This document shows positions 4,898-62,051 of a stretch of 64,000 bases of DNA, piece by piece. This stretch comes from Comamonadaceae bacterium (GTDB taxonomy: Bacteria; Pseudomonadota; Gammaproteobacteria; Burkholderiales; Burkholderiaceae_C): positions 62,001 through 126,000 of the forward strand of contig CANFOS010000008.1 of assembly GCA_947448735.1 (NCBI GenBank), written 5' to 3'. The notes under the pieces are model-generated. The model made no database searches and had not been told where the DNA came from. It was given only the letters and a program-made list of their open reading frames with translations. The position numbers were made by a program, and so were the translations under genes. Every line of letters starts with the position of its first letter. Positions within the stretch are counted from its first letter, which is position 1.

Positions 4898-4900
4898 TGG

Positions 4901-4965
4901 TGCTCCTATATCAGGAGCTTGTAGCCCTGATATTCATTGGGCTAGCGGCTGGTTTAGTTTTCGCC
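4901..4965. repeat. family-I interspersed repeat, intergenic copy
   Basis: This copy contains the shared segments GCTCCTATATCAGGAGCTT and TATTCATTGGGCTAGCGGCT. The same layout (GCTAT..., AGGAGCT, ATTCATTGGGCTAG.GGC, GATTT) recurs at 12432-12493, 35529-35582, 54010-54063 (inverted) and 57444-57503. It lies between the convergent ends of clpA and the HupE-like gene. Confidence 0.75.
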
Positions 4966-11865: not shown

Positions 11866-13818
11866 TTATTTTTGCAGCCTGTTGGCGAGTTCTTTGTAGC
11901 GCTGCATGGCCAGCGGGTCAGTGGCAGCACGTCCAGCGAGCTCCTGCATTTCCTGCTGCCACCTGAGTTTGACGAGCTGATCGATGATGCTGCGCACCTC
12001 GCTGAAGTCGGCTTCAATGCCCTCTGGGATTTGCGAGATCTGGACAATCGCATGGGCTTCGTGCGCATGGCCGCGTAAACCCTCCCGCAGGGCCGCCCAA
12101 GGCTGGGGGCCGTGGTCATGGAGTTGGCTTTCAGCCCAGGCGAACAGGGGGCCATGCGGGGCAGGCAGGGCGCACAGCAGGTGTTGCTCGTCGCTATCTA
12201 GCAAGTCCCAGCTTCGCGGCTCAGTCAGTAAAAACCGCAACACGCGGTCTTCCCGGCTGGCTGGCTGCAGGCGGCCTGCCAGCCGGCGAGTGGTTTTGAC
12301 GGTGGCGGCAAGGGGTGCCGAAAAATGCGGCTCCGAGCTTGAGTAATCCACCTCGTCGCTGCCTGGGTAGCCCACATCATCCGGGTAGTCTGAAAACGAC
12401 TCTTTGCTGCTGTTCTGGACCGGTTTTAGCGGTGATTTAGGGCTGCCAGCCAATGAATCATTACGCGGGTAGCTACTTTTTTTATAGCTTCCCACCTTGC
12501 TTGCTGGCTGCCACAGCTCCAGCAAGTCCCGCCCGTCAATCAGCACCTTGTCGGCAATCTCGGCCAGCAGTTGGCGCTTGAGCGCGCCGTCGGGCAGCGG
12601 TGTCCACAGCGGCCTGGCGTTGCTGGCCATGTGGGCGCGGCCTTCGGCGGTGTCCAGGTCGCAATCTTCGGCGGCCGCTTGCAGCATGAACTTACTCAGG
12701 GGCAGCGCCTTGGTCACCATCTCGGCAAAGCCGTCTTTACCGTGCTCACGAATGTAGCTGTCGGGGTCATGCTCGGCCGGTAAAAATAAAAACTTGACGG
12801 TCCGCACATCAGTCGCAAAGGGCAGGGCGGCATCAAGCGCCTTTCGTGCTGCCCGGCGGCCCGCGCCGTCACCGTCAAAGCTGAACACAACCGATTCGGT
12901 AAAGCGAAACAGCTTTTGCACATGCTCTGCTGTGCAGGCCGTGCCCAGAGTGGCCACGGCGTTGGCAAAGCCCATTTGCGCCAGCGCCACCACGTCCATG
13001 TAACCTTCGGTCACCAGCGCGTAGCCGTGCTCGCGCAGAGCGGTACGCGCTTCAAACAAGCCGTACAGCTCGCGTCCTTTGCTGAACACGGGTGTCTCGG
13101 GCGAATTTAAATATTTGGGCTTTTCGTCAGACAGCACCCGCCCGCCAAACCCAATGCATTCTCCCTTGACGTTGCGGATCGGGAACATCACGCGGTCCCG
13201 AAAACGGTCATACCGTTTGGCCTCAGCAGCGGTTTTTTCTTCACCAGGCTCACCGGTGATGACCAAACCGCTTTCCACCAGCAGGGGATCGTTGTAGTCG
13301 GGAAAAACGCCGGCCAGGCTGCGCCAACCTTCGGGGGCATAGCCCAGGCCAAAGGTTTTTGCAATTTCGCCCGACAGGCCGCGCCCCTTGAAGTAATCAA
13401 TTGCCTTGGGTGAGTTGCGCAGGGCTTTGATGTAGGCCAGGCCGGCTTTTTCAAGCACGCTGGTCAAGGTGGCCTGCTGCTGACGCATTTGCGCGGCTTT
13501 GGCCCGGTCTTGGGGAGAGACATCGTCTTCGGGCACCGGCAGGCCGTATTGCTGGGCCAAGTCCTTGACGGCTTCAATAAATGTCATGCCGGCGTGATCC
13601 ATCAGAAAGCCGATGGCATTGCCGTTTTTGCCGCAGCCAAAGCAGTGGTAAAACTGCTTGGCGGGGCTGACAGTGAACGATGGCGACTTTTCGCCATGAA
13701 AAGGGCACAGGCCCATGAAGTTGGCGCCGCCCTTTTTCAGCTGCACATACCGGCCCACAATGTCAACCACGTCGGCGCGGGCCAGTAGCTCTTGAATAAA
13801 GGATTGTGGAATCGCCAT
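11866..13818 (-). CDS. dnaG: DNA primase DnaG
   Basis: A 650-residue replicative primase. The CHC2 zinc finger ligands are C38, H41, C59 and C62 (in LCPFHGEKSPSF and HCFGCGKNG). The TOPRIM/RNA-polymerase core contains ALVTEGYMDVVALAQ and SVVFSFDGDGAGRRAARKA, where the catalytic Glu and Asp residues lie. A long hydrophilic linker follows (about 435-515), and then the DnaB-binding helical domain. The linker is longer than usual and about residues 442-463 are encoded by an interspersed repeat (12432-12493). The gene is upstream of rpoD on the same strand. Confidence 0.97.
   Translation of the reverse strand: MAIPQSFIQELLARADVVDIVGRYVQLKKGGANFMGLCPFHGEKSPSFTVSPAKQFYHCFGCGKNGNAIGFLMDHAGMTFIEAVKDLAQQYGLPVPEDDVSPQDRAKAAQMRQQQATLTSVLEKAGLAYIKALRNSPKAIDYFKGRGLSGEIAKTFGLGYAPEGWRSLAGVFPDYNDPLLVESGLVITGEPGEEKTAAEAKRYDRFRDRVMFPIRNVKGECIGFGGRVLSDEKPKYLNSPETPVFSKGRELYGLFEARTALREHGYALVTEGYMDVVALAQMGFANAVATLGTACTAEHVQKLFRFTESVVFSFDGDGAGRRAARKALDAALPFATDVRTVKFLFLPAEHDPDSYIREHGKDGFAEMVTKALPLSKFMLQAAAEDCDLDTAEGRAHMASNARPLWTPLPDGALKRQLLAEIADKVLIDGRDLLELWQPASKVGSYKKSSYPRNDSLAGSPKSPLKPVQNSSKESFSDYPDDVGYPGSDEVDYSSSEPHFSAPLAATVKTTRRLAGRLQPASREDRVLRFLLTEPRSWDLLDSDEQHLLCALPAPHGPLFAWAESQLHDHGPQPWAALREGLRGHAHEAHAIVQISQIPEGIEADFSEVRSIIDQLVKLRWQQEMQELAGRAATDPLAMQRYKELANRLQK
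12432..12493 (-). repeat. family-I interspersed repeat inside dnaG (in frame)
   Basis: Read in the dnaG sense, the order is GCTATAAAAAAAGTAGCTAC, then GATTCATTGGCTGGCAGCC, then TAAATC. This lines up over its full length with the intergenic copy at 57444-57503. It encodes dnaG residues of about 442-463, in the linker between the polymerase and helicase-binding domains, without breaking the frame. Confidence 0.7.
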
Positions 13819-18404: not shown

Positions 18405-19199
18405 TCAGTTTGCTGCAAAGAACTGTAGCATCGCGTCGAACGCTTCAGGCCTTTCGGCCATGAATCCGTGCAGGGTGTCTTCATAAACCAGCATTTGAGA
18501 ATGGGGTATGCGACTGCCGATGTCCTGACTCTGCTCAAGGGTGGTGATGATGTCGTTTTGACCGATGAGTATTTGCGTCGGGCACTGAATGTCGCACAGA
18601 CGGTCGCGGGAATCGTGGGTCAGCAAACTGTGGCCCGTATGAAGATAGCCATGCAGTGGTCGGTTGACCTGAAGCATGGCGTTAACAGATTGTTCGATTT
18701 TTTCCTGATTCAACTCGCAGTAGCGTTCGGAGTAGAAGTAGGTCAATAGGCCCAGGAGGAAGCTGCGGTCAATGCCTGTCGCCTTGGCTGACGCCATCCA
18801 CCATTGAACCATGTGGCGGCCGCGGGGGCCAAGATGTGCAAAGGTTGATGTCATCGCCAAGCTTCGAACGCTGTCAGGCCCCAGGATAGCCATCCACTGA
18901 GCAATGGCACCGCCCAAAGATTTACCCATCACATGAGCACGCTGAATGCCCAACGCCTGCATCAGCCCCAGCGCATCTTTGGCCAGCATCTGGGTTGTGT
19001 AAGGCGTGTCGGGTGCATCAGTGCCGCCTATGCCGCGGTTGTCAAAAGCCAAGACCTTGAATTTTTGGGCGGCACGATCAAGCTGCTGACCCCAGGAAGA
19101 CCAGTTTCCGCTGGCGTATCCACCCACCATGACCAGCCAGTCGCCTTCACCTTGCACGGTGTAATTCATCATCAGATCACCGACCTTGATACGGGGCAT
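18405..19199 (-). CDS. alpha/beta-hydrolase fold protein
   Basis: A 264-residue hydrolase. The nucleophile elbow is GKSLGGA (in HVMGKSLGGAIAQW). The oxyanion segment is VMVGGYASGNWSSW. The fold also shows FDNRGIGGTDAPD and a C-terminal DTLHGFMAERPEAFD that supplies the catalytic His. Overall it resembles 3-oxoadipate enol-lactonase or ring-cleavage C-C hydrolase relatives, but the substrate is undetermined. It precedes the Bug receptor gene. Its first ~107 coding bases and ~77 upstream bases are duplicated at 20752-20937. Confidence 0.88.
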   Translation of the reverse strand: MPRIKVGDLMMNYTVQGEGDWLVMVGGYASGNWSSWGQQLDRAAQKFKVLAFDNRGIGGTDAPDTPYTTQMLAKDALGLMQALGIQRAHVMGKSLGGAIAQWMAILGPDSVRSLAMTSTFAHLGPRGRHMVQWWMASAKATGIDRSFLLGLLTYFYSERYCELNQEKIEQSVNAMLQVNRPLHGYLHTGHSLLTHDSRDRLCDIQCPTQILIGQNDIITTLEQSQDIGSRIPHSQMLVYEDTLHGFMAERPEAFDAMLQFFAAN

Positions 19200-19441
19200 A
19201 AAAGTACTTTCTGCAATCTAAAAAACACTCAAATCGATAGATCTGATGACAAATTTAGCATAATTAAAGGAGATAAACGATATAGCCAGCTCGCCCCATC
19301 GCCAACCGGCAGCCACTTGGCGGGACTTAAACTGACGGGGATCGAGAAGGGGTATGAAGACCTTTGCCAGATTGAGGTGATGCCAACCGAATAACGGTTT
19401 GGCGGCAACCTGAAGACACCATCATCTGCAAGTACTCTTTT
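19200..19441. other. non-coding gap upstream of the alpha/beta hydrolase
   Basis: The first ~77 bases (to about 19276) are the upstream region shared with the duplicate at 20860-20937 and probably contain the hydrolase promoter. The remaining bases, about 19277-19441, show no recognisable gene. Confidence 0.5.
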
Positions 19442-20614: not shown

Positions 20615-20748
20615 TCAAACCCAACCCTGACGCCAGACGCCGTCATCTTGCAGTACACGCCAAGCGATCACTTGAGTGGCTTTAGAAAACACGGCTTCAA
20701 TTTCCACGTTTTCGATCGGGTCGGTCGGCAGCGGGGCGAATCACGCGG
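20615..20748 (-). pseudogene. duplicated 3' fragment of the Trp-rich TIGR02450 gene
   Basis: This segment copies the 3' end of the gene at 23325-23546. The stretch of roughly 103 bases from about 20621 matches 23329-23431 base for base by eye, including the stop side. Further along it loses two bases relative to the original, which breaks the frame. Only about the last 47 codons are represented. It ends at the sequence GCTGACC, where it joins the hydrolase fragment. Confidence 0.85.
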
Positions 20749-20937
20749 CTGACCCCAGGACCGGTTTCCGCTGGCGTATCCAGCTACCATCACCAGTCAG
20801 TCGCCTTCACATTACACGGTGTAATTCATCGTCAGATCACCGACCTTGATACGGGGCATAAGCGTACTTTCTGCAATCTAAAAAACACTCAAATCGATAG
20901 ATCTGATGACCAATTTAGCTCAGTTAAATGAGATAAG
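20749..20937 (-). pseudogene. duplicated 5' fragment of the alpha/beta-hydrolase gene with its upstream region
   Basis: This segment copies 19087-19276: the first ~36 codons plus ~77 upstream bases. The start codon is kept (20857-20859), but the frame reads MPRIKVGDLTMNYTV and then stops, because a Gln codon has become TAA. About 15 differences over roughly 185 bases make it more diverged than the neighbouring TIGR02450 fragment. It is therefore a relic, not a gene. Confidence 0.85.
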
Positions 20938-23324: not shown

Positions 23325-23546
23325 TCAAAGCCAACCCTGACGCCAGACGCCGTCATCTTGCAGTACACGCCAAGCGATCACTTGAGTGGCTTTAGAAAAC
23401 ACGGCTTCAATTTCCACGTTTTCGATCGGGTCGTTGGGCAGGTCGGGTTGAATCACGCGGCTGACCAGGAAGTGCTTTTGTTTCGCTTGGGGCGTGACCG
23501 CCGTCCATTTGGTGAGCAGCAGCTTTTTGGGATTCAGGGGGTTCAT
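23325..23546 (-). CDS. Trp-rich conserved protein of the TIGR02450 family
   Basis: A 73-residue protein: MNPLNPKKLLLTKWTAVTPQ at the start, then KHFLVSRVI, a variable acidic stretch, VEIEAVFSK, and WRVLQDDGVWRQGWL at the end. This matches the small family TIGR02450, whose members share NPKKLL.SKWTAV and a terminal W..GW. Function is unknown. It ends 9 bases before the MltB start on the same strand reading direction reversed (it lies downstream of mltB), so the two may be cotranscribed. Its 3' end was copied to 20615-20748. Confidence 0.85.
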   Translation of the reverse strand: MNPLNPKKLLLTKWTAVTPQAKQKHFLVSRVIQPDLPNDPIENVEIEAVFSKATQVIAWRVLQDDGVWRQGWL

Positions 23547-23555
23547 GGCCTTGGG

Positions 23556-24683
23556 TTACTTGCTGTTTTTCAGTTCCTGCGCCACAGCCTGCCCCAGTTC
23601 AATGACCGCCATGGCGTAGTAACTGCTCCAGTTGTAACGGGTGATGGCGTAAAAGTTTTCTGTGCCTGCCACGTACTGCGGCGTGTCCGGCCCGTTGAGC
23701 AGTTCGATCAGGGCCAGTGGGCCTGAATGCGCCAGCCCGGCGCCGTCCAGCACAGCGCCTTTGGCAGTGAAGCTGGCGGTGCTGAAGGTGGGCAGAATGT
23801 CTGGCGCCATCAGGGCGTCCATGTCCAGGCTGGTTTTGTCGAAAGTAACGGGGTAGTGGGTGGGCATGCCGGGCTGCCAGTTGAAGGTCTTGAAGTAGCT
23901 GGCAACCGAGCCAATCACATCGGCGGGGCTGTTCCACAGGTCAATCTTGCCGTCGCCGTCAAAGTCAACCGCGTACTTGGCCACGCTAGAGGGCATGAAC
24001 TGCGGCATGCCCATGGCGCCTGCAAAGCTGCCGCGCGGCTCAAGTGGGTCTGCGCTGCGGCGGCTCTGCAGGCTCAAAAATTGTTCGACTTCGCCTTTGA
24101 AAAATTCGCTGCGTTCTTTTGCGCGCGGGTGACTGGCTGGAAAGTCAAAGGCCAATGTTGTCAGGGCATCCAGCACCCGAAAGCTCCCGGTGTCGCGACC
24201 ATAAATGGTTTCAACGCCGATGATGCCGATGATGATGTCGATCGGCACACCGTATTCTTTTTCGGCGCGCTCCAGCGTTGCCTGGTTGGCCTGCCAAAAC
24301 TTTACTCCTGCAGCGATGCGGACCGGGTCAATAAAGCGGCTGCGGTAAATGCGCCAGTTTTTGACAAAGGGTTTGGCCGCCGGTTGCATCAGTTTGACGA
24401 CCGTGGCGCTGTAGCGCGCTTGACCGATGGCGCTCTTTACCCAAGCAGGATCCAGGTCGCGCCGTGCGGCCAGGTCGCCAGCAAACGCCATGACCTCCGG
24501 TCGGGTGGCGTACAGCGGGCCAGCACTGTTGCGCTGCATGGCTGTCTGCCGGGAGCTTGAACCGGGCCGCTTTGAGAGGTGTTTTTTGGCGTCATTTTGG
24601 CCCTTGGCCCAGGTATTACCTAGGCAAGCAGCTCCTAAAAAAAGAGCAATTAAAACGCTAAGAGCGTGCCTTGAAAATATCAT
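23556..24683 (-). CDS. mltB: lytic murein transglycosylase B
   Basis: A 375-residue peptidoglycan-cleaving enzyme. An N-terminal signal (MIFSRHALSVLIALFLGAAC) carries a Cys in a lipobox-like context. The catalytic domain shows the MltB motif EYGVPIDIIIGIIGVETIYGRDTGSFRVLDAL, with the catalytic Glu in GVETIYG. PRGSFAGAMGMPQFMPSSVAKYAVDFDGDGKIDLW follows, and the end is VAGTENFYAITRYNWSSYYAMAVIELGQAV. Length is usual for the family. The signal-peptide coding region resembles part of an interspersed repeat (24621-24651). It lies 9 bases after the transglutaminase gene on the same strand, possibly in the same transcript. Confidence 0.95.
   Translation of the reverse strand: MIFSRHALSVLIALFLGAACLGNTWAKGQNDAKKHLSKRPGSSSRQTAMQRNSAGPLYATRPEVMAFAGDLAARRDLDPAWVKSAIGQARYSATVVKLMQPAAKPFVKNWRIYRSRFIDPVRIAAGVKFWQANQATLERAEKEYGVPIDIIIGIIGVETIYGRDTGSFRVLDALTTLAFDFPASHPRAKERSEFFKGEVEQFLSLQSRRSADPLEPRGSFAGAMGMPQFMPSSVAKYAVDFDGDGKIDLWNSPADVIGSVASYFKTFNWQPGMPTHYPVTFDKTSLDMDALMAPDILPTFSTASFTAKGAVLDGAGLAHSGPLALIELLNGPDTPQYVAGTENFYAITRYNWSSYYAMAVIELGQAVAQELKNSK
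24621..24651 (-). repeat. possible partial family-I repeat in the mltB signal-peptide region
   Basis: Read in the mltB sense, ATTGCTCTTTTTTTAGGAGC and the next bases match ATTGCTATTACTTCAGGAGC of the intergenic copy from 57444 at most positions, but only for about 30 bases. The second half of the repeat is absent. Chance similarity in a T-rich hydrophobic-coding stretch is possible. Confidence 0.35.
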
Positions 24684-35516: not shown

Positions 35517-35528
35517 ATATTTTCAATC

Positions 35529-35582
35529 GCTATATTTTTGATAGCTGATTGTCTTCAGATTTATTGGGCTAGAAGCCTATTC
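35529..35582. repeat. family-I interspersed repeat, intergenic copy
   Basis: GCTATATTTTTGATAGCTG is followed by TTATTGGGCTAGAAGCC. The layout equals that of the other family-I copies. It lies in the gap between the acyl-CoA dehydrogenase and nitronate monooxygenase genes. Confidence 0.7.
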
Positions 35583-35616
35583 GATATCCCGATTCAGCCC
35601 TCTTTGAGTCAAATTC

Positions 35617-40809: not shown

Positions 40810-43991
<3,182 letters not shown>

Positions 43992-53112: not shown

Positions 53113-56100
53113 GTGACACTGCACTTGACTACATTTGAGGGCGACAGCTCTACAAACGCTCCGATTTCCGCTCTCAGCGACTTTCGCGCCCTTCAGCTTT
53201 TGCCCCAGCTACAGGCTATTGATCACAAGATAGTGGGCATCAGTGCCCGTTTTGTTCACTTGGTCGCCACCGAACAGCCCCCCAGTCCACAACAAAAAAG
53301 TCAACTGGCTGCCCTGCTCAGCTACGGCGAGCCGTGCAAGGCGCCAGAAGGTAAAAAGCTGGATGAGGCGGTGTTCATCGTCTCCCCCCGTTTGGGCACC
53401 GTGTCGCCCTGGGCCTCCAAAGCCACAGACATTGCGCGCAACTGCGGTTTGGCAGTCAAACGCATTGAACGCATCACCGAATACCGCGTTGTCTTGAAGT
53501 CTGGCCTGTTTGGCAAAGCTGCCTTGACGAGCGAGCATCACCAGCAAGTGGCCGCGTTGCTGCACGACCGCATGACGGAAAGTGTGATGGCAGACCGCGC
53601 TCAGGCTGCAGCGCTGTTCACCGAGCTACAGGCGGCGCCCCTGGCCAGCATCGACGTGCTGACAGGGGGCAAAGCTGCGCTTGAACAAGCCAACGCCGAG
53701 TTTGGTCTGGCCCTGGCGGCCGATGAAATCGACTACCTGGTACATGCCTTCATCCAGCTCAAGCGCAACCCGACCGACGTTGAACTGATGATGTTTGCCC
53801 AGGCCAACAGCGAACATTGCCGCCACAAAATCTTCAACGCCGACTTCACGGTTGACGGTGTGGCCCAGGGCATCAGCCTGTTTGGCATGATTCGCAACAC
53901 CGAAAAACTGAACCCGCAACACACGGTGGTGGCCTATTCAGACAACGCCTCCATCATGGAAGGCTCAAAAAGGCAGGTTTTTACCGCAACACCGGCAGTT
54001 TCAGGCGTCAAATCGGCCTCTAGCCCAAGAGATACCTACGCTAGCAGCTCCCAAATGTATAGCGCAGCAAATGACGTGTTGACCCACGTCCTGATGAAGG
54101 TCGAAACCCATAACCACCCGACAGCCATCTCGCCTTTTCCTGGCGCGTCCACTGGCGCAGGCGGCGAGATACGCGACGAAGGTGCCACGGGGCGTGGCTC
54201 CAAACCCAAGGCGGGTTTGACCGGTTTTACCGTGTCAAAGCTGTTCGGCAGCGACTACGGCAAGCCAGACCATATCGCCAGCCCGTTGCAAATCATGACC
54301 CAAGGCCCGCTCGGCGGCGCGGCTTTCAACAACGAATTTGGCCGCCCCAACCTGAACGGCTACTTTCGCGAATACGAGCAAACCGCCCAAGGTCAGCGCT
54401 GGGGCTACCACAAGCCGATCATGATTGCGGGCGGTGTCGGCACGATTGACGCCGGCTTGACGAAGAAAATCCTGTTTCCGGCGGGTACCTTGCTGATTCA
54501 GCTCGGCGGGCCGGGCATGCGGATTGGCATGGGCGGCAGCGCGGCCAGCTCGATGGCCACCGGAACCAATGCCGCACAACTCGACTTTGACTCGGTGCAG
54601 CGCGGCAACCCCGAGATTGAGCGGCGTGCGCAAGAGGTGATCAACCAGTGTGCACAGCAGGGTGCGGCCAACCCGATTCTGGCGATTCACGACGTGGGCG
54701 CGGGCGGCTTGTCCAACGCCTTTCCTGAATTGACGAACGATGCCGGGCGGGGTGCAAGGTTTGATTTGCGTGCCGTGCCGCTGGAAGAAAGCGGGCTGTC
54801 ACCCAAAGAAATCTGGTCCAACGAAAGCCAGGAGCGCTATGTGATGGCGATTGCGCCCGAGTCCTTGCCGCAGTTCAAAGCATTTTGCGAGCGTGAGCGT
54901 TGCCCGTTTGCAGTGATTGGCGTGGCAACTGAGGAGCGGGATCTGTTAGTCACCGATGGGAAAGAATCTTCTCTTGACCAGCCGGGGCCGCGGAACCGGC
55001 TTAGCCGGGCCGCAGGCGCAGCGGCCCCCTCGGGGGGCAGCGAAGTACACGAAGTGACGAGCGTGGGGGCACCAGTGAATATGCCAATGGAAGTACTGCT
55101 CGGAAAGCCGCCAAAGATGCACCGCGACGTCAAAACCGTCAAGCACAGCATCAAACCCATCGACCTGACCGGCATAGACCTGCAAAAAAGCGCGATCGAC
55201 GTGCTCAGCCACCCCACAGTGGCGTCCAAACGCTTTCTCATCACCATTGGCGACCGCACGGTAGGTGGCCTCACGCACCGCGACCAGATGGTGGGCCCGT
55301 GGCAAGTGCCGGTGGCCGACTGCGCCGTGACGCTGGCCGACTACCATGGCTTTGCAGGCGAAGCCATGGCCATGGGCGAGCGCACGCCGCTGGCAGTAGT
55401 CAACGCGGCAGCATCAGGTCGCATGGCTGTTGCCGAAGCCATCACTAACCTGCTGGCCGCGCCGATAGAACTGCCACGCGTCAAGCTGTCGGCCAACTGG
55501 ATGGCCGCTTGCGGCGAGCCGGGTCAGGACGCGGCGCTGTTTGAAACCGTCAAAGCCGTGGGTATGGAGCTGTGCCCCGCGCTGGGCGTGTCAATTCCGG
55601 TCGGCAAGGATTCGCTGTCGATGCGCACCACTTGGAACGATGGCACTGACAGCAAAAAAGTCACATCGCCCGTGTCATTGATCGTCAGCGCTTTCGCCTC
55701 GTTGGCCGACGTACGCGGCACACTGACCCCGCAGCTCAACCGGGACGAAGCCGACACCACCCTGATTCTGATCGACCTGGGCAAAGGCCAGCACCGCATG
55801 GGCGGCAGCATTTTGGCGCAAACCCTGAACTGTGAAGACGGCCACGTGCCCGACCTCGACGACGCCAAAGACCTGATCCATCTCGTCAATGCCATCAACG
55901 CGCTCCGGGCCAAAAACCAGATCATGGCCTACCACGACCGCAGCGACGGCGGTCTGTTTGCCTGCATCTGTGAGATGGCCTTTGCTGGCAACGTTGGCGT
56001 GGCGCTGAACATCGACATGCTGCTGGTGGAAGGCGACGGCATCACCGACAGCCGCATGGAAGTGGGCGACAGCAAAAACTGGGCAAGCCAGGTCGGTGTT

Positions 56101-57276
56101 CGGCGCGACGAGATGACGCTCAAGGCACTGTTCAACGAAGAGCTGGGCGCGGTGATCCAGGTCAACACAGCTGTCCGCAACGAGGTCATGCAAACCTTGC
56201 GCGAGCACGGCTTGAGCAAATTCAGCCACTTCATTGGCAAAACCCGTCCCGAACATTCGCAGCTCACCGTTGGCAAAGGCGAAGTTCAAGTCTGGCGCGA
56301 CACCAAAGCGGTCTTCAAAGCCAAGCTGCAAGACCTGCATCAGGTGTGGGACTCTGTGAGCTGGCGCATTTGCCAGCAGCGCGACAACCCGGCAGGCGCG
56401 GACGCAGAGCACGCGGCAGTCGGTGATGTGGCCAACCCCGGCTTGCATGTCAAGTTGACATTTGATGCAGGCCAGTTAGCAGCCCCCACTCTGCTGCTGT
56501 CCAAGCCCAAAGTCGCCATCCTGCGCGAGCAGGGCGTCAACTCCCATATCGAGATGGCCTATGCCTTTACCCAGGCCGGATTTGAGGCCTACGACGTTCA
56601 CATGACCGACCTGCAAACGGGCCGTGCCCAACTGGCCGACTTCAAAGGCGTGGTTGCCTGTGGCGGCTTCAGCTATGGCGACACGCTGGGCGCAGGCATC
56701 GGCTGGGCCCGGTCCATCACCTTCAACTCGGCCTTGGCCGATCAGTTCAAGGCGTTTTTTGCTGAAAAAGACACGTTCGGCCTGGGCGTTTGTAACGGCT
56801 GCCAGATGTTTGCCGAACTGGCCAACATCATCCCCGGCGCGCAGGCCTGGCCGCGCTTTACCACCAACCGCAGCGAGCGCTTTGAAGCCCGCCTGAGCCA
56901 GGTTGAAGTGCTGGATTCCCCCAGCCTGTTTTTTAAAGGCATGGCCGGCAGCAGACTGCCCATCGCCGTAGCCCACGGTGAAGGCTTTGCCAACTTTGAG
57001 CCTGCACTCGGCGGACGCGGCGATGCCGCCAAGTCCATTGCAGCGATGCGTTTTACCGACAACCACGGCGCAGCCACGGAAAGCTACCCAGCCAACCCCA
57101 ACGGCAGCCCAGGCGGCTTGACAGCAGTCACCACGGCAGACGGCCGCTTCACAGCCATGATGCCGCACCCCGAGCGTGTCTTTCGCAATATCCAGATGAG
57201 CTGGACACCGCTGGACGCAGCAGCCCACAGCCCCTGGATGCAGTTGTGGCGCAACGCGCGGCGCTGGGTGGGGTAG
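53113..57276 (+). CDS. purL: phosphoribosylformylglycinamidine synthase (large fused type)
   Basis: A 1387-residue purine enzyme making FGAM from FGAR, glutamine and ATP. Domains: N-terminal PurS-like region, two AIRS-like synthetase halves ([29 protein letters not shown] marks the ATP site), and a C-terminal class I glutaminase with [12 protein letters not shown] (nucleophile Cys) and MMPHPERVF. It starts with GTG. It is about 90 residues longer than the E. coli enzyme (1295), and at least 50 of those come from two in-frame interspersed repeats, at residues of about 300-317 and 622-653. Both lie outside the visible catalytic motifs. Confidence 0.96.
54010..54063 (+). repeat. family-I interspersed repeat inside purL (in frame, inverted)
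   Basis: The reverse complement reads GCTATACATTTGGGAGCTGC onward and ends TTGGGCTAGAGGCCGATTT, aligning along its whole length with the intergenic copies. It begins exactly on a codon boundary and encodes residues 300-317 ([18 protein letters not shown]), replacing a segment that differs in E. coli PurL just before the conserved [10 protein letters not shown]. Confidence 0.85.
54976..55071 (+). repeat. family-II GC-rich interspersed repeat inside purL (in frame)
   Basis: Contains CGGCCCCCTCGGGGGGCAGC, then GAAGTACACGAAGTGAC and GTGGGGGC, matching the intergenic copy at 60071-60148. It also contains GCCGGGGCCGCGGAACCGGC and another GC-rich palindrome. It encodes residues of about 622-653 ([20 protein letters not shown] and so on), between VTDG and the conserved [16 protein letters not shown]. 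Confidence 0.85.
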
Positions 57277-57443: not shown

Positions 57444-57503
57444 ATTGCTATTACTTCAGGAGCTTATCGCCCAAGTATTCATTGGCTTGCAGGCTGATTT
57501 GAC
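57444..57503. repeat. family-I interspersed repeat, intergenic copy
   Basis: ATTGCTATTACTTCAGGAGC is followed by AAGTATTCATTGGCTTGCAG and GCTGATTT. It is a good reference copy for the family. It lies between the convergent purL and solute-binding lipoprotein genes. Confidence 0.75.
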
Positions 57504-57568
57504 GCGGTTGAAAAACGCTAAAAAGCGAGTTTTCCAGCGTCAAAATAACTAAAAACCGCAAGATCGTT

Positions 57569-60070: not shown

Positions 60071-60148
60071 CAGCGACGGGCCGCCCCGAGCAAGTGACGG
60101 CCCCCTCGGGGGGCAGCGTAGTACGCGAAGCGACAAGTGTGGGGGTCA
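60071..60148. repeat. family-II GC-rich interspersed repeat at the msrB 3' end
   Basis: CGGCCCCCTCGGGGGGCAGC followed by TAGTACGCGAAGCGAC and GTGGGGGTC matches the copy inside purL. It lies between msrB and yciB and reaches the msrB stop codon (60146-60148), which it probably supplies. Confidence 0.8.
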
Positions 60149-60578: not shown

Positions 60579-62051
60579 TCATGAACTGCAGCTGATTTCA
60601 ATACCGCTGGCCCAGTCTGGCGGAAAGCCAGCCAGCGCATTGTGGTCAGGATGCTCATCAAATGGGGCTTGCAGGGTGTCTAACAAGGTCTGGATCTTTG
60701 AGTAGTCTTTAAGTTTCGCGGCGCGGATGGCTTCTTCGCCCAAATGGTTGCGCAACACGTATTTCGGGTTGCTTTTGAGCATCAAAATAGCTCTTGAATC
60801 GGCCTCCAGGCCAATAGATTCTTGGGTGAGCAGCTCTGAATAGTGTAGCGCCCAGGCATTGAAGGATTCCCGGTCAAAAAACAAATCGCGCAGGGGTTCA
60901 TGGCCACTTTGCGGGGTAAATGCACACAGTCGCCGCCAGAAAATGGTGTAGTCCACTTTGTTGTCGGCCAGCAGCTTGAAGGTGCTTTCAATCAGCGCGT
61001 TGGTATCGGCTGTCGCTTGGGTCAAGCCCAGTTTGGCGAGCATTTTGCCGCCGAGTGCGGCGGGGAAGATGGCTTTGTACGGCTCGAGCGCCGTCAGCGC
61101 CAGGTCTTGCTCGCCGATCAGCGGCAGCAGGGCTTGGCCTAAGCAAAACAAGTTCCAGTAGCCGATGTTCGGCTGCTTGTTGTAGGCATAGCGGCCATGG
61201 GTGTCTGAATGGTTACAGATGTGCGTTGGGTCAAAAGCGTCGAGAAACTGGAACGGGCCGTAATCAATCGTCAACCCCAAAATGCTCATGTTGTCGGTGT
61301 TCATCACGCCATGGCAAAAGCCGACCGATTGCCACGCGGCCATCAGGCAGGCAGTACGTTCGCTCACGGCTTCGAGCAGCGCGGCATAAGGGTTGGTCGC
61401 ACCACGGCAGGCCGGGTAAAAGCTGTCGATGACAAAGTCGGCCAGGGCTTTGAGTTCGACATGCCTATCGTTGTAGCTGAAGTGCTCAAAATGCCCAAAA
61501 CGGATAAAACTCGGTGCGGTGCGGGTGACAACAGCTGCGGTTTCTATTTCTTCGCGCAACACTTTGGCGTCCGAGCCAGTCAGGCACAGCGCTCTGATGG
61601 TTGGTATGCCCAGGCCGTGCATGGCTTCAGAGCATAAATATTCACGGATGGAAGAACGCAGCACGGCCCGGCCATCGCCCATGCGGGAGTAGGGCGTTTT
61701 GCCTGCGCCTTTTAACTGAACCTCCTGACCGCCCGAAGGCGTGTCAAGTTCACCGAGCAAAATCGCCCGGCCATCGCCGAGCTGCCCCGCCCATTGGCCA
61801 AACTGGTGGCCGCTGTACACGCTGGCCAGCGGTTCGCTACCGCTCAGAACGCTGTTGCCGACAAAGGCTTGCAGTGCGTCCTGCGATTCAAACCACTCTG
61901 CTTCAAGGCCCAGTTCCCGCGCAACTGCCTGGTTGCGGCTAACCCAATAGGGTTCAGGAAGGGCCTGGGGCCGCAAGCGGGTTGAAAAATTCGCACCCAA
62001 TCGGGCAAAGCGGTTGTTCCAGGCCAATTGCTGCGAGAGATCAGTTGTCAT
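60579..62051 (-). CDS. selO: protein adenylyltransferase SelO
   Basis: A 490-residue pseudokinase that transfers AMP to Ser, Thr or Tyr of target proteins. Motifs: [96 protein letters not shown], and a terminal CSS, matching the C-terminal Cys-Ser-Ser of bacterial SelO where eukaryotic homologues carry Sec. It may link redox state to AMPylation, and msrB is next to it. I chose the ATG at 62051. Confidence 0.94.

Follow-up and report, generated by a model that had tools for sequence, protein, structure and literature searches.

The purL gene, encoding a phosphoribosylformylglycinamidine synthase of 1387 aa, occupies positions 53113 to 57276 on the plus strand of the window (the whole 64,000-nt stretch of DNA that was analysed), and was identified by its FGAR-AT and GATase_5 Pfam matches and by comparison with 1t3t and other solved PurL structures. 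Its reading frame is uninterrupted and carries, on the minus strand at 53999-54066, a copy of a short repeat, here termed the family-I element, with a 64-nt core at 54003-54066 and the element's 3' end at 53999-54009. Codon 300 begins at position 54010, and the segment 54010-54063 (54 nt) is read as 18 residues (codons 300-317), which correspond to the reverse complement of a repeat also located between genes. The original prediction of a codon-aligned, inverted repeat copy at 54010-54063 was therefore correct, the segment being part of the longer copy. A position-weight scan for 64-nt cores, using a profile of the 150 copies listed in a genome-wide search with the purL copy included, yielded eight copies in the window with scores from 71.9, for the purL copy, to 32.6; the next best place scored -17.7 and the maximum in five mononucleotide shuffles of the window was -5.5. 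Plus-strand copies at 4899-4962 (score 51.7) and 35526-35589 (56.7) lie between genes, and another at 57444-57507 (68.6) lies downstream of purL and is also found in the relative G015. These are the three that had been named previously, at 4901, 35529 and 57444, and four others had been missed, all on the minus strand. They are found in frame in selO (PF02696), where the element's own strand is read (60789-60852, 54.2), in frame in ligA, at about residues 275-296 within the match to the adenylation domain (42703-42766, 32.6), in frame in dnaG, at about residues 443-464, past the DnaB-binding match (12428-12491, 35.3), and near the N-terminus, as placed by a predicted start, of a lytic transglycosylase (SLT_2) ORF (24587-24650, 56.3).

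When the purL copy was used in a blastn search of its own genome, which is Polaromonas-like, 37 places were found at E<=1, itself included, and 33 copies (30 blastn places and the three named previously) align nearly ungapped as one family. A first sequence model, built from 29 of these 33, gave at least 150 matches in the 3.83-Mb genome, the weakest listed having an E value of 8e-8, which bears out the expected genome-wide excess of the repeat. Since the model was made from blastn partners of the purL copy and the three named copies, recruitment is biased to purL-like copies, and since the window copies at 12428 and 42703 are not among the 150 listed matches the genome total must exceed 150. 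In the alignment of the 150 listed copies, information rises sharply at TGCTATT and fades after CCTAAA, which delimits an element of about 68 nt, and most listed copies (102 of 150) lie outside long ORFs. Of 41 genomes of the genus searched with the same model, 13 had no match at E<=1e-4, under stricter filters that cause weak matches to be lost, and these 13 element-negative genomes provide a control. A search with a short pattern (14 nt, 3 mismatches) did not discriminate, its 15 matches being equalled in 20 of 100 shuffles. A plasmid collection searched with the purL copy gave no match.

The surroundings of all 150 listed copies were examined, and 48 of them lie in an ORF of at least 150 aa with at least 15 aa on each side (35 and 13 from two batches). 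In 24 of the 150, confirming the existence of further in-frame copies, the element is inside a conserved gene, with Pfam matches bracketing the copy in one frame or, for FtsX, an ortholog alignment. The products are PurL, a benzoate-CoA-ligase-like enzyme, a SpoU methylase, a dihydrolipoamide-dehydrogenase-like protein (Lpd), an HrpA-like helicase, Tex, a laccase, LeuRS, NadE, YjeF, FtsX, a UvrD helicase, SbmA, SelO, ComEC, GpsA, a 6PGDH-like enzyme, an oxidoreductase with a POR domain, MeaB, a GluQ-like synthetase, TruB, an Lhr-like helicase, PGI and NIF3, several of these short names being assigned from the Pfam descriptions. Sixteen of the 48 were left out because Pfam matches did not bracket the copy or none was found (L101, L260, L262, L267, L275, L028, the second ORF of L279, L281, L283, L293, L298, L299, L021, L301, L303 and L328), and eight outside the Pfam scan were uncounted (L252, L254, L004, L294, L297, L317, L333 and L335); some of these 24 uncounted long-ORF copies are probably real and others are surely spurious frames. 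The idea that in-frame copies avoid domain cores holds by Pfam boundaries for Lpd, NadE and SbmA, in which the copy falls between domains, but not for GpsA, SelO, the CoA ligase and LigA, in which it is inside a domain match, and a general exclusion from domain interiors is therefore unsupported.

The choice of reading frame is biased. Sixteen of the 24 in-gene copies share one minus-strand frame, S-x-x-P-x-A-Q-x-I-x-x-x-A-A-P-E-x-I-A, yet just 18 of the 102 copies outside long ORFs have it open; a frame open in 63 of those 102 is used by 3 of the 24, and PurL reads a frame other than that of the 16. The prevalence of a rarely open frame suggests that it is the encoded peptide, not mere openness, that decides which copies are retained, and the peptide thus seems to be under selection. 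To judge from the open and conserved frames, the in-gene copies would be translated.

In PurL the copy corresponds to 18 extra alignment columns relative to the solved structure 1t3t. A predicted model of residues 1-669 (64 sequences, mean pLDDT 69, pTM 0.68) places strands at 280-292 and 316-328, with pLDDT <50 at residues 297-301 and 303-313, in a model of modest quality in which 196 of the 669 residues have pLDDT <50, including long stretches elsewhere than the insert loop. The insert region is probably a flexible, extended hairpin loop, in keeping with the predicted loop location. Together with the genome-wide excess and the further in-frame copies, this location supports the original prediction that a dispersed element supplies protein sequence to PurL.

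A further question is whether the element was added to its host proteins or took the place of native residues. A complete relative, G149, has counterparts for 22 of 23 searched segments, that of the POR protein being weak, and 14 of the 22 show an element match of >=14 bits at the same place. At the site of the copy Tex is 27 aa shorter in G149, and solved Tex has 29 aa fewer; in comparison with this solved homolog the Tex copy is a clear insertion. The SpoU methylase is 16 aa shorter in G149. The proposal that all in-gene copies are plain insertions was dropped, however, since SelO, GpsA, LeuRS and the CoA ligase show little, no or only moderate length change relative to solved homologs. The SelO site has a weak match, of 17 to 24.5 bits, in three of five further Polaromonas-like relatives and one of 35.5 bits in the sister genome G015; the small length change and these matches point to native loop residues having been lost, or overwritten by the element.

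On a PurL tree the window protein is surrounded by neighbours named Polaromonas, and the same loop with a recognisable copy is found in Rhodoferax, Acidovorax, Ottowia and other relatives. Scored as the presence of both DNA motifs at the right spacing, the insert occurs in 61 of 176 PurL rows, which include duplicates of single genomes, and the same two-motif test was negative in all 20 genomes from other families. In a tree calculated with the loop excluded, 27 of 92 rows carry the insert and all belong to one group of 52 rows, mostly of named Comamonadaceae genera. Judged from the sequences compared, the PurL insertion is old, not fresh. Possession of the same residues by all related genera, with codon usage unlike that of the repeat, had been put forward as evidence against a repeat origin; this is touched on in part, for the insert is indeed common to related genera, but it also tracks the repeat. 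Among genomes of the genus with a readable PurL loop it is present in 15 of 17 that bear the element and in none of four that are element-negative (G005, which retains one of the two motifs, G013, G032 and G034). In G025 and G002 both motifs were not seen together in the PurL loop that was read, despite at least 129 copies of the element in the former and 123 in the latter. G025 has two PurL matches (C31 and C4), the one read being without the insert. A second PurL site, near residue 1075, is occupied by a family-I copy in two records, one of Rhodoferax and one of Polaromonas (L171:6230-6289 and L162:6216-6276). The PurL of L195, a metagenome-assembled genome named Methylobacillus, falls among Comamonadaceae rows on the tree, and the record is possibly misnamed.

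The element consensus differs between genera, and in-frame copies tend to follow the version of their own genome. The profile of a copy's own genome gave the best score for 23 of 24 in-frame copies in the window genome, 11 of 11 in G168 and 9 of 10 in G097, that is 43 of 45 over three genera, in a comparison of small numbers in which the scores include any base-composition drift. The window-genome profile comprised 19 copies drawn at random from the 126 outside the in-gene set of 24, and those of G168 (19 copies) and G097 (20 copies) comprised the copies not in frame among the best 30 per genome. For G168 and G097 an ORF was the sole basis, without Pfam, for calling a copy in frame; all copies of these two genomes were found with the window-genome model, which should work against the result obtained. 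The GpsA copy scored 46.6 on its own profile against 26.3 and 33.7 in the window genome, and 40.8 against 27.9 and 27.5 in G168. For TruB the G097 copy scored 57.5 on its own profile against 41.6 and 43.1, and that of the window genome had no clear best (51.7, 50.5 and 50.7). The PurL copies of the window genome and G168 scored best on their own profiles, the G097 purL copy reaching 40.3 on its own and 41.7 on that of G168. Such likeness at several shared sites hints at conversion or repeated insertion. A more far-reaching proposal, that the family is homogenised genome-wide, coding copies included, with the PurL, GpsA and TruB loops being repeatedly rewritten across genera into the local version of the repeat, is put forward only tentatively, and the balance of our judgement is somewhat against it; if true, it would amount to concerted evolution linking non-coding DNA with loops of essential enzymes.

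The explanation favoured here, with high confidence, is that a dispersed element of about 68 nt, probably non-autonomous, has spread through Comamonadaceae genomes and that copies entering a gene in a readable frame at a tolerant spot have been retained and are presumably translated. Insertion, and not only replacement, would have placed the element in most of the genes, the encoded residues would form tolerated loops without a needed function, and the copies in PurL and some other loops would have been refreshed by conversion or re-insertion. A simpler history for PurL would be one ancient insertion in the ancestor of these genera followed by vertical descent, erosion and losses, without conversion or re-insertion. 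The insert is at one site and confined to one group of the tree, as such a history would have it, and the six changes required on the tree, five of them forced by starred (well-supported) branches, may represent either one gain with losses or several gains; some of the six may be no more than erosion, since the motif test scores the eroded forms L150, L059, L052 and L174 as absent. The number of changes nevertheless tells against it, and so does the condition of the window copy, which takes 11th place among the 150 when scored with a profile built from 122 copies outside the first model. The insert of the window genome, like that of its sister G015, is also 7 residues (21 nt) longer, the added DNA ending in the element's own 3' sequence, and the window copy has the GGAGC variant, as do 68 of the 150 listed copies of its genome, whereas most other Polaromonas PurL copies have the ATAGC form. 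The longer 3' part and the GGAGC form look like a second event at an old site, and a history of descent alone is considered rather unlikely.

The nature and possible mover of the element have also to be considered. RAYT transposases are associated with REP elements, palindromic units that bear a GTAG or CGTC tag, and the family-I element might be of REP type and owe its spread to a Y1 (RAYT-like) transposase. One Y1_Tnp gene was found in the window genome (C3:75972-76298; locus L326, G000 C3:75639-76466), and a family-I copy at 76403-76466 starts about 26 nt from the upstream end of its stop-to-stop ORF; G015 has the arrangement too (L453), and copies occur close to Y1_Tnp genes in G190 (L437) and G012 (L444). 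Every one of the 41 genus genomes gave a Y1_Tnp match, however, the 13 element-negative ones among them, so that its presence is no guide to the mover of the element, and 7 of the 30 Y1 loci fetched have an element match at E<=0.1, two of them being those of the window genome and its sister. The hairpin that defines a REP is likewise without covariation support. RNAalifold found no pair in the aligned copies; two short stems drawn by hand were paired in 76.4% of cells against a shuffle mean of 77.7%, with 2 pairs showing double changes against 3.1 in shuffles, and sliding the stem partners lowered pairing to 32-53%, so that the consensus arms can pair with each other yet show no covariation. 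The idea that the element is built on a conserved hairpin was rejected on these grounds, and a search of the window against Rfam gave no family at gathering score. A REP-type origin is considered unlikely. It is less likely still that the element is a functional DNA or RNA site, for instance one that binds a protein, kept at the DNA level even within genes. Such a site would account for the equal match to the consensus of the 24 in-gene copies (mean 58.1) and the 102 outside long ORFs (58.4; p=0.85), but erosion is masked by the score threshold common to both groups, and 13 of 41 genus members lack a copy at E<=1e-4 and the consensus varies from genus to genus. Chance or convergence in a low-complexity loop could be entertained for PurL, whose loop length is variable among the Burkholderiales read, but as an account of the DNA match it is refuted by the 50-bit gap between copies and background in the window and by the lack of a match in 13 of the 41 genomes of the genus.

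The best-documented examples of repeats in frame within housekeeping proteins come from Rickettsia, whose members are obligately intracellular, and weak selection is the usual explanation. The window genome belongs to a lineage that is presumably free-living. It had been suggested that the purL insert resembles the palindromic elements (RPE) of Rickettsia, which, according to the parts of the literature consulted, are of 105-146 bp with a long predicted stem-loop and are found both between genes and in frame in conserved proteins (PMC2229807; PMC10969869). The likeness of behaviour holds, both being small dispersed repeats with intergenic and in-frame copies, the latter in conserved genes, and with a recurring encoded peptide. 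Family membership does not, since at about 68 nt and with a hairpin that lacks covariation the family-I element fails two defining features, length and stem-loop; as far as those sources go, it differs further in being found in Polaromonas and relatives and in having in-gene sites common to several genera. The phenomenon is the same in kind and its setting new. The protein-coding palindromic repeats of Wolbachia and the palindromic repeats with coding potential of Methanocaldococcus jannaschii, likened here by title and not by sequence, are similarly found in genes. M. jannaschii is free-living, and a free-living host is therefore not new by itself. ERIC and other intragenic MITEs resemble the element in being short and of high copy number (PMC10969869, PMC2229807), and in-frame fusions by intragenic MITEs are described as not unusual (PMC10969869). 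MITEs have terminal inverted repeats, in contrast to the family-I consensus, whose ends, TGCTATT and CCTAAAA, show no inverted-repeat relation to one another; those reported for Polaromonas JS666 (cited in the review PMC10969869) may or may not be the family-I element. REPs, described as palindromes of 20-40 bp in the part of PMC3733652 consulted, are likewise short repeats of high copy number, and one family-I copy adjoins a Y1 transposase gene; the available text of that paper contains no mention of Polaromonas, Acidovorax, Rhodoferax or Comamonad*. The literature searched, including work on Rickettsia and Methanocaldococcus repeats, held no description of the family-I element, its coverage being partial and implying no absence from print. 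The measured preference for one frame and the tendency of shared sites to follow their own genome's version of the repeat are, within the portion of the literature consulted, undescribed.

What is added is the finding of two dozen bracketed in-frame cases in one genome of a presumably free-living lineage, with some sites kept over several genera and one frame preferred. Filled and empty orthologs exist, as for Tex and PurL, and the feeding of repeats into protein evolution can thus be tested by comparison. There is also a practical consequence, in that the PurL, SelO and GpsA loops of Comamonadaceae can hold repeat-derived letters that mislead alignments and trees. PurL contains a second, GC-rich repeat-derived stretch on the plus strand at 54961-55068 (about residues 617-652), with a further, intergenic copy at 60098-60145; by themselves, residues of about 600-677 find matches at many other places in the genus, some of them within open frames, and among relatives this stretch is present, absent or replaced by a different version. 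Elsewhere in the window there are two pairs of long direct repeats, one of 178 nt with 92% identity (19099-19276 and 20759-20936) and one of 117 nt with 97% identity (20615-20731 and 23325-23441).
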